In this document: positions 5,004-10,909 of the stretch, piece after piece
How positions within the stretch are numbered: position 1 is the stretch's first letter
How the letters are laid out: every line of letters starts with the position of its first letter
Origin: Candidatus Helarchaeota archaeon
Lineage (GTDB): Archaea > Asgardarchaeota > Lokiarchaeia > Helarchaeales > HEL-GB-A
Assembly: GCA_016840125.1 (NCBI GenBank)
Contig: JAEOSY010000584.1
Coordinates: 1 to 10,909, forward strand
Direction: 5' to 3'
Length of the DNA: 10,909 bases
The notes under the pieces: model-generated
What the model was told of the DNA's origin: nothing
The model's input: the letters and a program-made list of their open reading frames with translations, nothing else
Databases searched by the model: none
Made by a program: the position numbers and the translations under genes

Positions 5004-5035
5004 AAAAAAATTAAAAAAAGATAAAGAAAAAAAAA
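5004..5035 (-). terminator. Triple T-run terminator of the histone-fold gene
   Basis: On the minus strand three runs of nine, seven and seven T (5027-5035, 5013-5019, 5004-5010) begin 10 bases after the stop codon at 5046-5048. Repeated T runs are the typical strong terminator of highly expressed archaeal genes, which suits an abundant chromatin protein. Confidence 0.65.
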
Positions 5036-5045
5036 GTGGATGAGG

Positions 5046-5363
5046 TTACTTCTTACCTTTCTTCTTCGCTGGTTCTCCCATTTTATTTTTTAAGACACGC
5101 TTGCCTTTGGTGACATCGCCTTTCTTAACTGTCTTTCTAGAGAGTTGACCTTCTTGCTCGCCTTTACTCTTGGTAGGCATCGCTTCCACTAAGCTATCCA
5201 GAGCCAGTTTAATAAGGTCTTCTAACCAATTGATCATTGGTTCCTTTGCATCACGACTAACGTTCAATTTTGTTTCCTTTCCCTCGTACGTGCCTCGAAG
5301 GAGTTCCCTTATCCGTGAATAATAAACTAACGGCTTTTTTGCTTCAGTTGCCTCTTCAGCCAT
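5046..5363 (-). CDS. Histone-fold DNA-binding protein with loop insertions and a lysine-rich tail
   Basis: The 105-residue protein carries the landmarks of archaeal histones such as HMfB in the right order. Helix 1 is YYSRIRELLRG (14-24). VSRDAK (35-40) corresponds to VSDDAR at the start of helix 2. RKTVKKGD (76-83) corresponds to RKTIKAED, keeping the exact spacing of the R-D salt-bridge pair (R76, D83) and the RKT DNA-contact motif. It differs from the roughly 68-residue canonical form in three ways. There are about 7 extra residues in loop 1, about 10 extra before RKT (around MPTKSKGEQEGQ, 62-73), and a C-terminal tail ending KKKGKK. The N-terminus also adds about 10 polar residues. It probably binds DNA as a dimer in the nucleoid. 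It is monocistronic, with its own TATA-like box and strong terminator. An alternative is a histone-fold transcription factor subunit. I infer the fold by motif alignment only. Confidence 0.65.
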   Translation of the reverse strand: MAEEATEAKKPLVYYSRIRELLRGTYEGKETKLNVSRDAKEPMINWLEDLIKLALDSLVEAMPTKSKGEQEGQLSRKTVKKGDVTKGKRVLKNKMGEPAKKKGKK

Positions 5364-5410
5364 ATTTTTCTACCCCACTCAAATGTATTACAAACGTATT
5401 ACATGAGTTA

Positions 5411-5420
5411 ATTTTTAATA
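5411..5420 (-). promoter_or_regulatory. TATA-like box of the histone-fold gene
   Basis: The minus strand reads TATTAAAAAT about 48 bases before the ATG at 5363, giving a predicted leader of about 25 nt. The ribosome site is unclear: a G-rich GAGTGGGG (5375-5382) lies 11 bases before the ATG. Confidence 0.35.
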
Positions 5421-5890
5421 AGAATTTTGCACTTTTTAAGCCTTACGCTTTTCTGTCGAACAAAAATGTAGTGATCATACACGACACATTTTTACCAAAA
5501 TATATTATGGATTATTAAACTGAGATTGCTATTGTCTGCTTTATTTTCGTTTTTATCGTTGAATATTTTCTCATTAAATAACTTATATGAAAAATTGAAT
5601 GCATTTCGAAATTAAATCCGCGCCTATTTATACTTTCATTTTATGCCAATTTAAACTAAGAATCCAGTCCGATTCTTTCTATCCATGTAAATGGAGTGTG
5701 AAATTAAAATGAGGGAAAAAAATTACCAAAAATTCATGTTTTTCTCATACAATTTCAGCTAATATGGCGATTAATATAAGTTTTTAAAGAATATTATCTT
5801 AAATCCTCCCATTGTACTTGTACTTTTTTTATTAAAAACTGAAAAAAAAAGTAACAAAACAGTGCATTCTATGTTCTTGTTGTTATACAA

Positions 5891-5900
5891 AATTTTTAAG
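5891..5900 (+). promoter_or_regulatory. Possible TATA box of glutamine synthetase
   Basis: AATTTTTAAG would set the transcript start near 5920 and a leader of about 50 nt before the ATG at 5972. Other A/T-rich candidates exist nearby, so the choice is weak. No NrpR-type GGAA-N6-TTCC operator was seen. Confidence 0.28.
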
Positions 5901-5956
5901 ATGGGAAATCACAAAATGTCTTATCAGAAACTAAGAGGATTTTAGTTAGAACGCTT

Positions 5957-5964
5957 AAGGTGAT
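5957..5964 (+). promoter_or_regulatory. Ribosome binding site that fixes the glutamine synthetase start
   Basis: AAGGTGAT matches the 3' end of archaeal 16S rRNA and stands 7 bases before the ATG at 5972. The in-frame GTG at 5960 is part of this site and so is unlikely to be the start. Confidence 0.7.
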
Positions 5965-5971
5965 TTATGAT

Positions 5972-7330
5972 ATGCTTGACTTAAATGATCCCCGCCGAAA
6001 AGACGAAGTAGATCGCGTGATTAAATTTATTCGTGATGAGGGGATAAAATATGCGCGCTTACAATTCATTGATATTAATGGATTATTAAAGAGTTTCTCT
6101 GTTTCCACGAAATTTATTGAAAGAACGCTCGCTGAAGGGCAATATTTTGATGGATCCTCCGTTACTGGGATGGGTAGTATCGAAGAAAGCGATATGATCG
6201 CGATTCCTGATCCTTCTACTTTCAATGTGATCCCCTGGAGATCTAAAGAATTATCTACCTGCCGGTTCATTTGTGATATATATTTGCCCAATGGGAATCC
6301 CTATGAGGGTTCATCAAGATACGTTTTGAAAAAGGCATTGGAAGAAGCCAAAAAGCTGGGTTATACCTTGAAATGTGCCCCTGAGTTAGAATTTTTCATC
6401 CTTGAGGAAAATGAATCCACTATTCCTGCTCCTATGGATTTTTCCGGGTACTTTGATTTACATCCTAGTGGCATTTCTGAGGACTTAAGGCGGAAAATGG
6501 CGGATACGGCGGAACAATTCGGAATAGATATAGAGGTGGCTCATCATGAAGTGGCCGTAGGGCAAAATGAGATTGATTTCCGCTATGATGAAGCCATGCT
6601 TACTGCAGATCGAACCATTACCATGAAGATGGTCATCAAAAGTATTGCGAAACGTAATGGATACCTTGCTACTTTTATGCCCAAACCCTTCTTTGGTGTC
6701 AATGGTTCCGGAATGCATGTCCATCAGAGCCTCTGGACGCTAGATGGGCAAAACGCATTCTTTGCTGAAAATGAAAAAACTGGATATCTCTCCGATGTCG
6801 CGCTACATTTCATTGGTGGGCAATTATTACATGGACGTGAGATGTCAGCAGTGCTTGCCTCTTGGCCAAACTCTTATAAAAGATTAGTACCGGGCTATGA
6901 GGCACCTGTCTATGTTGCCTACGCCCACAAAAATCGGTCAGCATTAATACGCGTCCCAGATTTCGGGAAACGTAAGAATGCCGCTCGGATGGAAATTCGT
7001 TGCCCTGATCCTGCCGGAAATCCCTATCTCCAATTTGCGGTGCTCCTTCAAGTTGGTCTAACCGGGATTAAGAAGAAAATAGAACCACCGGAACCCACCG
7101 AATTAAACGTTTATAAAATGAGTTTAGAAGAGCGACGCAAACTTGGGATTATTTCATTGCCAGAATCTCTCTCTGAAGCCCTTAAAGAGCTCGAAAAGAG
7201 CGAATTGATGCGTCAAGCCCTCCTACCTACCGCTTATGAAAACTTTTTAGAAATAAAATGGAAGGAGTGGGATGAATACCGCATGCAAGTGACGAGCTGG
7301 GAATTGGAACGGTACATCCAGAAATTATAA
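5972..7330 (+). CDS. glnA: Glutamine synthetase type I (GSI-alpha-like)
   Basis: Makes glutamine from glutamate, ammonium and ATP; GSI forms cytoplasmic dodecamers. From the ATG chosen by the ribosome site the protein is 452 residues, near the length of GSI-alpha enzymes. The N-terminal beta-grasp domain holds FDGSSVTG (59-66) and SDMIAIPDP (73-81). The catalytic domain shows the metal/glutamate residues E138 and E140 (PELEFF) and the ATP/ammonium segment KPFFGVNGSGMHVHQSL (238-254, H249). It also has the flap Glu in PGYEAP (E310), NRSALIRVP (321-329) and MEIRCPDPAGNPYL (340-353, E341 and R343). The region around Y381 (NVYKMSLEER) and the C-terminus resemble GSI-alpha. The NLYDLP adenylylation motif of GSI-beta is missing, so control by adenylylation is not expected. 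Feedback control cannot be read from sequence. The enzyme partners metabolically with the glutamate dehydrogenase at 7899-9248. It ends 8 bases from the stop of a small convergent gene. Confidence 0.96.
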   Translation: MLDLNDPRRKDEVDRVIKFIRDEGIKYARLQFIDINGLLKSFSVSTKFIERTLAEGQYFDGSSVTGMGSIEESDMIAIPDPSTFNVIPWRSKELSTCRFICDIYLPNGNPYEGSSRYVLKKALEEAKKLGYTLKCAPELEFFILEENESTIPAPMDFSGYFDLHPSGISEDLRRKMADTAEQFGIDIEVAHHEVAVGQNEIDFRYDEAMLTADRTITMKMVIKSIAKRNGYLATFMPKPFFGVNGSGMHVHQSLWTLDGQNAFFAENEKTGYLSDVALHFIGGQLLHGREMSAVLASWPNSYKRLVPGYEAPVYVAYAHKNRSALIRVPDFGKRKNAARMEIRCPDPAGNPYLQFAVLLQVGLTGIKKKIEPPEPTELNVYKMSLEERRKLGIISLPESLSEALKELEKSELMRQALLPTAYENFLEIKWKEWDEYRMQVTSWELERYIQKL

Positions 7331-9258: not shown

Positions 9259-9268
9259 TCTTTTTTTT
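9259..9268 (+). terminator. T-run terminator of glutamate dehydrogenase
   Basis: Eight T (9261-9268) start 12 bases after the GDH stop, followed by a second run of five T at 9275-9279. The run overlaps the stop codon (9267-9269) of the convergent gene. No matching T run is seen for the minus-strand transcript, which may therefore read antisense into the end of gdhA. Confidence 0.55.
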
Positions 9269-10909
9269 AATCTCTTTTTGATAAATAGCAAATTCCTTGT
9301 TGCGTAAACGCATTCATATTAATTTTAATTACTTGATCCCTCTCTGAATCAAAATTAATTACTTTTATTGCATCCTTCCAACGATCTGTATCGGGGATCA
9401 GATCACCTAGAATGTTTTTTGAGTTGAAGAAGAACTCTCGGTTAAGAATATATTCCTCTTTATCGGGGTGAATAACAAGGTATAATATATCTGATTCTAC
9501 AAGATTATTGAAGAAATGAGTCCCTAGAGAAACATCTGGAATTAATTCCCCAATTTTCTCTGCCATTTCACAAATAATTGAAAAATTTCGTATTTCAGTA
9601 AATGATACGGGTATTCCAAAACTTGGGGATGAAGTACCCCATCTTCCTGGCCCTAAAAGCATAAAACTTTTATTCTCTAATTCTTTTAACTGGTTAATTT
9701 TCCCTATCACGCGGGCAATCGAATAGCGCTCAGTCTCTCTCATTTTTCCATACACTTCAGGGACAATATATACAATTCTATCGATTGTTCCCGCGAGGCT
9801 ATTCCCAATTATCGGGCCCGTTGTTTTTAAAATAATCGAATCACGCTCCACGTCTTTTGGTGAAACGATGTTTTTGATTTCATTTTTAACTTGGAATCGC
9901 CGACACTGTAAGAGATTAATTCGATAGTCCTTGTCATCTAAAAAATTAATGGTGTATTCGATGTCAACTGGACATTCATAGGCTTTTTCAAGGGTTTCTA
10001 AGATGCTTCTCATATCTTTAATAAAATTGGTATTTTTCAACAAGTTATTGAATGTCAAAATCCACGGGAATTGAATAGGTCTATTTAGTTGCCGCATTCT
10101 TTTTTCGAGATCTTGATTATACGTTGCTACAATTCTTAATGGCAATAGGTCTTCAATAAATTGCAAATTAACAAAATCCTCGGTGAGAAGCTCATTGCGT
10201 TCGATATCCAGCAAATCAACTTTCCGTTGGGAATGTTCTTCAATTTCTTCTAAGGAGCTTTCAACTCGCAATAAAGGTTCGTTTAAGGCAACGAGTCTAG
10301 TAAAATCATCTTCAATTCTTTCAACAGCACGCGTTCCAAGACCAAACACTAATCTTAAGAAACCCGCATTTGGGTCAATTTTCTCGTTCCAAACATAGGG
10401 ATTGAAGGAAAAGCCTGTCCCCGCTATTTGTGGAAAAAAATATTTATCATAGATTGAACCGGAAACTCGTTGGACCAGTATAGCCATTTGTTCGTCTTCC
10501 TCCAACAAATTCCGATCCCGTCGATAAATTAGGGCTTCTCGACTAACGGCACTTGCATAGACTGTTTTTATAGCTTCAATAAATCCTTCTAAGCGTTCTT
10601 CTGGCGTTCCTTGATTTACACAAAAAATACTCTCATATTTTCCAGAGAATGAATTTCCATAGGAATCCTCTTGCAAACTACTAGAACGTATAATTATGGG
10701 CGATTGTCCGAAATAATTGAGAACGTCTTTGAATTTTTCAATTAAATAATCAGGGAATTTTCCAGAGAGAATCCTATCATGTGTTTCTTTCCATCCCTCA
10801 AGGAATTTATCGGGGTTTGATAGTTTTCTTCGCATCCACCAGCAACCATTTTTTACTAAGAAGGTATAAAAAACCTCGGTTCCTATGTAAAAGGAATCAT
10901 GCGGTTCCA
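9267..10909 (-). CDS. PEP/pyruvate-binding (PPDK N-domain) ATP-grasp protein without a phosphohistidine domain, 5' end missing
   Basis: The reading frame has no stop from 9267 to the right edge. The ATG at 10835 is internal, because the upstream codons continue in family-like sequence (DSFYIGTEVFYTFLVKNGCW, like the 'visTeaf..fl..n' start of these domains). Numbering from M10835, ATP-grasp features are IIIRSSSLQEDSYGNSFSGK (47-66) with R50, VQRVSGSIYDKYFFP (121-135), GLGTRAVERIEDDF (165-178), and DIEY followed by LLQCRRF (291-314), which closes the nucleotide site. The C-terminal part carries LLGPGRWGTSSPSFGIPVSF (393-412) and SLGTHFFNNL (436-445), typical of stand-alone PEP/pyruvate-binding proteins. 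No TSH-type phosphohistidine motif or PEP-utilising TIM barrel follows, so it is not a complete PEP synthase. Function is unknown; such proteins may be ATP-dependent phosphotransferases or sensors, sometimes fused to signalling domains. It converges with gdhA at 18 bp. Confidence 0.82.
   Translation of the reverse strand, partial: EPHDSFYIGTEVFYTFLVKNGCWWMRRKLSNPDKFLEGWKETHDRILSGKFPDYLIEKFKDVLNYFGQSPIIIRSSSLQEDSYGNSFSGKYESIFCVNQGTPEERLEGFIEAIKTVYASAVSREALIYRRDRNLLEEDEQMAILVQRVSGSIYDKYFFPQIAGTGFSFNPYVWNEKIDPNAGFLRLVFGLGTRAVERIEDDFTRLVALNEPLLRVESSLEEIEEHSQRKVDLLDIERNELLTEDFVNLQFIEDLLPLRIVATYNQDLEKRMRQLNRPIQFPWILTFNNLLKNTNFIKDMRSILETLEKAYECPVDIEYTINFLDDKDYRINLLQCRRFQVKNEIKNIVSPKDVERDSIILKTTGPIIGNSLAGTIDRIVYIVPEVYGKMRETERYSIARVIGKINQLKELENKSFMLLGPGRWGTSSPSFGIPVSFTEIRNFSIICEMAEKIGELIPDVSLGTHFFNNLVESDILYLVIHPDKEEYILNREFFFNSKNILGDLIPDTDRWKDAIKVINFDSERDQVIKINMNAFTQQGICYLSKRD

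Follow-up and report, generated by a model that had tools for sequence, protein, structure and literature searches.

A predicted histone-fold protein of Helarchaeota with an extended loop 2, and its family in Asgard archaea

The window, by which we mean the whole 10,909-nt stretch of Candidatus Helarchaeota DNA analysed here, encodes a 105-residue protein that, judging from structure prediction, very probably adopts a histone fold, and whose second loop carries an insert that recurs at a fixed length throughout a family of Asgard proteins. The open reading frame (5046-5363, minus strand) starts with ATG and ends with TAA. The T runs directly 3' of the stop codon are compatible with an archaeal terminator of this gene and would fit a stand-alone transcription unit; TATA-like hexamers in the window occurred at chance level (38 found versus 39.6 expected). 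The features of the gene are as follows.

5046..5363, minus strand: coding sequence of the loop-2-extended histone-fold protein, 105 aa (open reading frame; 24 relatives at 45-90% identity)
5301..5321, minus strand: helix 1, residues 15-21 (AlphaFold2 models)
5268..5297, minus strand: loop 1 with a predicted beta hairpin, residues 23-32 (AlphaFold2 and 140-row alignment)
5181..5255, minus strand: helix 2, residues 37-61 (AlphaFold2)
5124..5180, minus strand: extended loop 2, residues 62-80, MPTKSKGEQEGQLSRKTVK, the most conserved segment of the family (family alignments)
5115..5138, minus strand: RKTxxxxD motif with the R-D clamp, residues 76-83 (conservation in the 140-row alignment)
5082..5123, minus strand: helix 3, residues 81-94 (AlphaFold2)
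5049..5081, minus strand: basic C-terminal tail, residues 95-105, its end predicted to be disordered (AlphaFold2)
5004..5035, minus strand: three T runs (9, 7 and 7) directly 3' of the stop codon (seen in the sequence)

A sequence-only reading of the gene had singled out VSxDA and RKTxxxxD, with R and D seven residues apart, as marks of an archaeal histone. Both are present in the translated frame, as V35-S36-R37-D38-A39 and R76-K77-T78-V-K-K-G-D83, and the spacing of seven is that of the 'R-D clamp' of PMC13260811, where the clamp together with RxT in L2 is given as a universal histone-fold signature (this paper and those named below are cited from partial text). To follow these residues across the family, we used an alignment of 140 rows, which holds the window protein and 144 listed relatives minus five with odd ends (P0098, P0099, P0118, P0123, and P0137). 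R76 and T78 are each kept in 140/140 rows and D83 in 139/140, the window included, and because these residues are near-invariant the RKTxxxxD match is no chance resemblance.

Exactly 36 residues lie between A39 in helix 2 and R76 in loop 2 in all 140 rows, the window included, compared with 27 between the helix-2 Ala and the L2 Arg in 33/33 canonical Asgard histones, which were the best-scoring loci from genome scans and no random sample; the loop-2 insert is thus fixed at nine residues. The 36-residue spacing also occurs in the doublet and fused forms described below and in four of the relatives outside the alignment (P0098, P0099, P0118, and P0137), and hand counts gave 36 for P0123 and for the compact member of genome G081. 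Within the loop, P63 and G68 are invariant in the 140 rows, K67, G72, and L74 are each kept in 137/140, and K65 in 125/140. Of all segments, loop 2 varies least, with a mean entropy of 0.95 bits versus 1.75 bits in helix 2 (140 rows), and in the 25 rows of the tailed form to which the window protein belongs the values are 0.32 and 1.24 bits. The insert keeps both its length and its sequence, and is in this respect unlike a random linker. Insertions had been predicted in both loops: loop 2 is nine residues longer in 140/140 rows, whereas loop 1 is longer in 25/25 tailed rows but not in most compact ones. Searched for in other Asgard genomes, as the sequence-only reading had suggested, the loop-2 insertion recurs and marks a wider family; it is not peculiar to the window gene.

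Given the 140-row alignment, AlphaFold2 predicted a three-helix histone fold for the window protein (pLDDT 85.9; confident in all five models), with a long central helix and with L1 and L2 as its joints. The three helices of this monomer and the solved-structure matches listed for it, which are histone-fold entries although each is weak, bear out the fold that had been proposed; NF-Y chains were placed high for this model by Foldseek. The KKKGKK tail is likewise real, and the C-terminal end (residues 102-105, pLDDT under 50) is predicted to be disordered.

The family comprises two main forms. Two protein searches yielded 24 relatives of the tailed form, and the named organisms among the closest relatives of the window protein are Candidatus Helarchaeota and Promethearchaeota metagenome-assembled genomes (MAGs). 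Over 227 Asgard genomes, the tailed profile found matches in 17, mostly to a compact form, which has ~76 residues and lacks the long tail. With an E threshold of 0.01, a compact profile built from 15 sequences matched 158 proteins, and 120 of these were used; the 17 organism-named proteins among the matches listed all come from Promethearchaeota, Promethearchaeia, Loki- or Helarchaeota, and two compact proteins among the matches listed belong to the cultured Ca. Lokiarchaeum ossiferum (P0075 and P0111). Over the genomes, the compact profile matched 20/227, all 20 in the class of Helarchaeota Hel_GB_A, and the joint profile matched 21/83 genomes of that class and 4/4 of the order; the extra genome found with the joint profile, G153, is a marginal match (E 8.6e-4) and proved on reading to hold a canonical-type histone. 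Asgard archaea were covered by genome scans and organisms beyond them by the protein collection, and in this scope the family is so far limited to one class of Asgard archaea. Among viral contigs, 45 stretches matched a pattern and none was confirmed as a relative.

Aligned with each other, the tailed and compact profiles matched with 98.4% probability (E 6e-15). In a quick tree of 25 tailed rows, 29 of the 115 compact rows plus the G081 compact member, three of the four fused proteins, and five of the 33 canonical histones, the tailed form fell on one side of a branch with support 75, and the family was separated from the five canonical histones with support 98. Only 6 of the 60 inner branches of this tree carry a star and 27 are left open; long branches are joined at the split from the canonical histones. 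A canonical-length Asgard histone, L061 (G164:C69:6124-6321), came out on top of the 33 under each of the three variant profiles (tailed, compact, and joint) and is possibly the family's closest canonical relative.

Several members depart from the single-domain layout. Genome G090, of the same class as Hel_GB_A, has two copies of the loop-2-extended fold as a doublet in a single frame of 179 aa (L026:1-540, plus strand, G090:C44), which overruns the contig start. The two halves share 55% identity over 77 residues, and each has the 36-residue spacing. Fused forms were found in G001 (L100:7758-8375, plus strand), G161 (L101:6082-6738, minus strand), G159 (L114:689-1402, minus strand), and G158 (L115:902-1753, minus strand), at 206 and 219 aa and, counted stop to stop, 237 and 283 aa. 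Each begins with a helical-looking region, followed by a linker, the loop-2-extended fold, and a short stretch at the C-terminus; the G161 protein gave no convincing Pfam match. The tailed homologue of Hel_GB_A (P0022; L001:3707-4057, plus strand) has an odd N-terminus with no ATG before the fold, which may reflect an error in the MAG sequence or another start site.

The tailed and compact forms differ in the DNA edge of loop 1, in loop-1 length, in helix 3, and in the basic tail. By hand count in alignment A3, loop 1 of the window protein is five residues longer than that of the canonical Hel_GB_A histone L002 (16 versus 11), and its length is 16 in 25/25 tailed rows and 12 in 89/115 compact rows. 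In canonical histones, an Arg of loop 1 enters the minor groove. This Arg is kept in 114/115 compact rows, whereas in 25/25 tailed rows, the window included, its place right after loop 1 is occupied by an Asn (N34). Helix 3 is predicted to span 14 residues (81-94) in the window protein; 105/115 compact rows stop at most seven residues past the clamp Asp, which leaves room for no more than a rudimentary helix 3 in these relatives. The tail, for which a search of Asgard genomes had also been suggested, occurs in the 24 tailed relatives; it is missing, together with almost the whole of helix 3, from most family members. C-terminal tails in general are already known on archaeal histones: tails of up to 11 residues have been described in several archaea, including a Lokiarchaeon (PMC6136690).

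All 20 genomes with a compact-profile match also contain 4-10 matches to PF00808 (E up to 0.001), of which the four of Hel_GB_A were inspected singly and are canonical in layout; the variant thus looks accessory, apparently supplementing canonical histones and not replacing them. The tailed gene is divergent from a glutamine synthetase gene (glnA) both in the window (gap 5364-5959) and in Hel_GB_A (L001 3009-3706), and this neighbour was absent from 20 other stretches, including the tailed loci of G082 and G083, so that we draw no conclusion from it. The window glnA (5960-7330) is 78% identical to that of Hel_GB_A. A shared operon was rejected, as the 293 ORFs of 22 loci (the window, L001, and the 20 stretches) show no consistent partner gene. 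Most recurring neighbours fall in groups of closely related loci (four or three loci with the same gene order). In less related loci, CoA-ligase-type genes (Succ_CoA_lig, CoA_binding) lie near the family gene in L084, L090, and L098, and DUF362 genes in L085, L091, and L100; given their varying orientation and distance, we read both as probably common genes. Elsewhere in the window, an AT-rich repeat (73-122; four copies at 10-bp spacing) lies upstream of an ORF at 194 with a weak match to glycoside hydrolase family 15, and 9267-10835 (minus strand) encodes a 522-aa protein for which Pfam gives a single match, to the N-terminal ATP-binding domain of PPDK/PEP-synthase.

We consider it reasonably probable that the window protein is a divergent, basic, DNA-binding histone-fold dimer, an accessory chromatin variant of Helarchaeota in which a loop-2 arm would alter DNA contact and disfavour growth of a hypernucleosome. 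Histone dimers bind ~30 bp with the face of helix 1 and with their paired L1-L2 loops, and they extend through a four-helix bundle formed by the helix-2 end and helix 3 (PMC11390915; PMC13260811). The window protein would act as a dimer beside several canonical histones and would likewise hold ~30 bp, using helix 1 and the edges at which L1 and L2 pair. The nine-residue insert (M/L-P-x-K-x-K-G...G-x-L-x-R-x-T) would form a Lys/Gly-rich arm at the L1-L2 edge, placed between the helix-2 end and the clamp. Since it would there adjoin both the DNA edge and the four-helix bundle, the arm could supply lysine-DNA contacts that replace the missing loop-1 Arg and could hinder end-to-end stacking of dimers; the outcome would be DNA bending or the ending of a histone run rather than hypernucleosome extension. 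The lysine tail may contribute unspecific DNA affinity. Altered wrapping of DNA, a capping variant, and a histone-fold transcription factor are the roles that the sequence-only reading had put forward as possible. Taken on its own, DNA binding by the window protein is likely, and we lean slightly towards the view that by itself it would form no canonical hypernucleosomes.

Capstone histones have an unstable dimer-dimer interface, with an acidic or hydrophobic residue 49. The window protein might be a hypernucleosome capstone of this kind, which would heterodimerise with or join canonical runs and stop their extension through a defective tetramer interface. The protein contains no histidine at all, so the H49 contact discussed in PMC7776873 is impossible in it; in most compact relatives helix 3, a part of the four-helix bundle (PMC13260811), can be rudimentary at best, and family members share their genomes with PF00808 histones. 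Against this stand the 14-residue helix 3 predicted in the window protein itself and position 49, which is unalignable across the nine-residue insert, and we regard a capstone role as a tentative reading only, less likely to be right than wrong.

The family is barely recognised by standard protein models. The search with the archaeal histone profile (CBFD_NFYB_HMF) that had been proposed as a check did not bear out the expectation, as the window protein has no Pfam match, PF00808 and PF09415 included; the NCBIfam archaeal histone model NF043032 gave E 0.014 and 15.8 bits against a cut-off of 50. In an alignment of 20 members searched at E up to 10, 18 matched NF043032 (best 0.00098) and 10 matched PF00808 (best 0.03); among the 140 members at E up to 1, the counts were 33 (best 0.00056) and 18 (best 0.01). 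The IMG/JGI label 'histone H3/H4' on five listed relatives (P0014, P0020, P0045, P0068, and P0102) shows that the family has already been touched by automatic annotation. Two compact relatives, P0047 and P0088, bear the JGI label 'formaldehyde-activating enzyme involved in methanogenesis', which is probably a misannotation; the corresponding NCBIfam model weakly matched eight of the 140 members. As for profile controls, reversed profiles came out nearly equal to forward ones in an ORF-decoy test, and we relied on a shuffle test instead, which was clear for the tailed (15/33) and joint (18/33) profiles only and unclear for the compact one (7/33).

These searches bear on the idea that the protein is a histone-fold subunit of a specific complex of the NF-Y, NC2, TAF, or CENP-S/CENP-X type, in which loop 2 would read a partner or a DNA structure. 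The low variability of loop 2 and the high Foldseek rank of NF-Y chains point in this direction, as do the fusion of some relatives to other regions and CENP-X (PF09415), itself a histone fold, as the commonest Pfam match of the 140 members (32/140 at E up to 1, best 0.00019), beside many unrelated weak matches. However, the CENP-X scores obtained are below threshold, and we rejected this kinship; the two are set apart by scores and not residue by residue. Among ten chosen members four matched, at no more than 19 bits against a cut-off of 25; over genomes, 22/83 matched at E up to 1, none above the cut-off (best 21.6 bits), and 6/14 control genomes likewise matched below it. With no Pfam match for the window protein and no consistent partner gene nearby, such a role is unlikely.

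It is more improbable still that the protein joins two duplexes through its C-terminal part, as a DNA-bridging histone like MJ1647/HmvA would. HmvA was the best match of the family profile among solved structures (E 0.081 with 20 rows, 0.017 with 140), but bridging by MJ1647 uses a C-terminal extension of about 27 residues with two helices (PMC10516927), whereas the window protein has only 11 residues past helix 3, with no helix and no folded tetramerisation module predicted, and most compact relatives have none. With the window protein as a single sequence, two designed helical repeat proteins were the best PDB matches (E 6e-6); the E-value arises from five weak repeats, none significant alone, and both matches were set aside as chance. 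That the protein has no histone fold and is a small helical basic protein (e.g., RNA- or ribosome-associated) with a fortuitous RKTxxxxD is most improbable of all: individual scores are weak, unrelated Pfam and NCBIfam matches are scattered, and the profile controls are partly composition-driven, but all five models of the 140-row prediction are confident, the solved structures listed as matches have histone folds, and hardly any row departs from the RxT motif and R-D clamp.

A comparison with known systems sets the loop-2-extended variant apart in several ways. With canonical HMfA/HMfB-type histones (PF00808) it shares the predicted three-helix fold, RxT, the R-D clamp seven apart, VSxDA opening helix 2, and a small, basic protein; it differs in the nine-residue-longer loop 2 of all 140 rows, in the longer loop 1 and Asn of the tailed form, and, for the window protein, in the lack of His and of a Pfam match. 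In alpha3-truncated histones (face-to-face, DUF1931, and bacterial HBb), helix 3 has 3-4 residues (PMC11390915). Most compact relatives resemble them in having almost nothing past the clamp Asp, and the family profile weakly matched 9qt0 (DUF1931) and HBb; however, the family has 36 residues between A and R versus 23 counted in 9qt0, and the window protein, with its 14-residue helix 3, is not alpha3-truncated. Tailed archaeal histones have a short Lys-rich tail on an Asgard histone fold, as here, but no loop-2 insertion is described for them in the available text of PMC6136690 and PMC10919886.

In the open-licence literature, which leaves supplements and preprints out of scope, we found no description of a loop-2-extended Asgard histone. 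HLkE of Lokiarchaeota GC14_75 has a truncated C-terminus (PMC6136690) and is known here by that description alone, not by sequence. A 2026 archaeal survey of 11 million proteins relied on PF00808 with an E threshold of 0.1 and on PF00125 with one of 4 (PMC13260811), and from the weak single-protein E-values of the family we infer that most of it would be missed there. Loop 2 is usually no more than a short loop in contact with DNA. It is conceivable, though we hold it at somewhat below even chance, that the family forms a histone class of its own in Loki- and Helarchaea, one that mostly escapes Pfam-based surveys and whose loop 2 would be a dedicated, length-fixed binding arm; these archaea would then have two chromatin systems, one of canonical runs and one of a loop-2-armed variant that occurs in tailed, doublet, and fused forms.

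Among known prokaryotes, Asgard archaea are the most closely related to eukaryotes, and inferences on the origin of the nucleosome draw on their histone repertoire. Nine histone paralogs have been counted in L. ossiferum and at least five paralog groups in Lokiarchaeia (PMC10919886). Given a conserved histone-fold family that scores below standard models, Asgard paralog counts may be incomplete, and because members occur in the cultured Ca. Lokiarchaeum ossiferum, their occupancy of DNA and the role of the loop-2 arm are directly testable.
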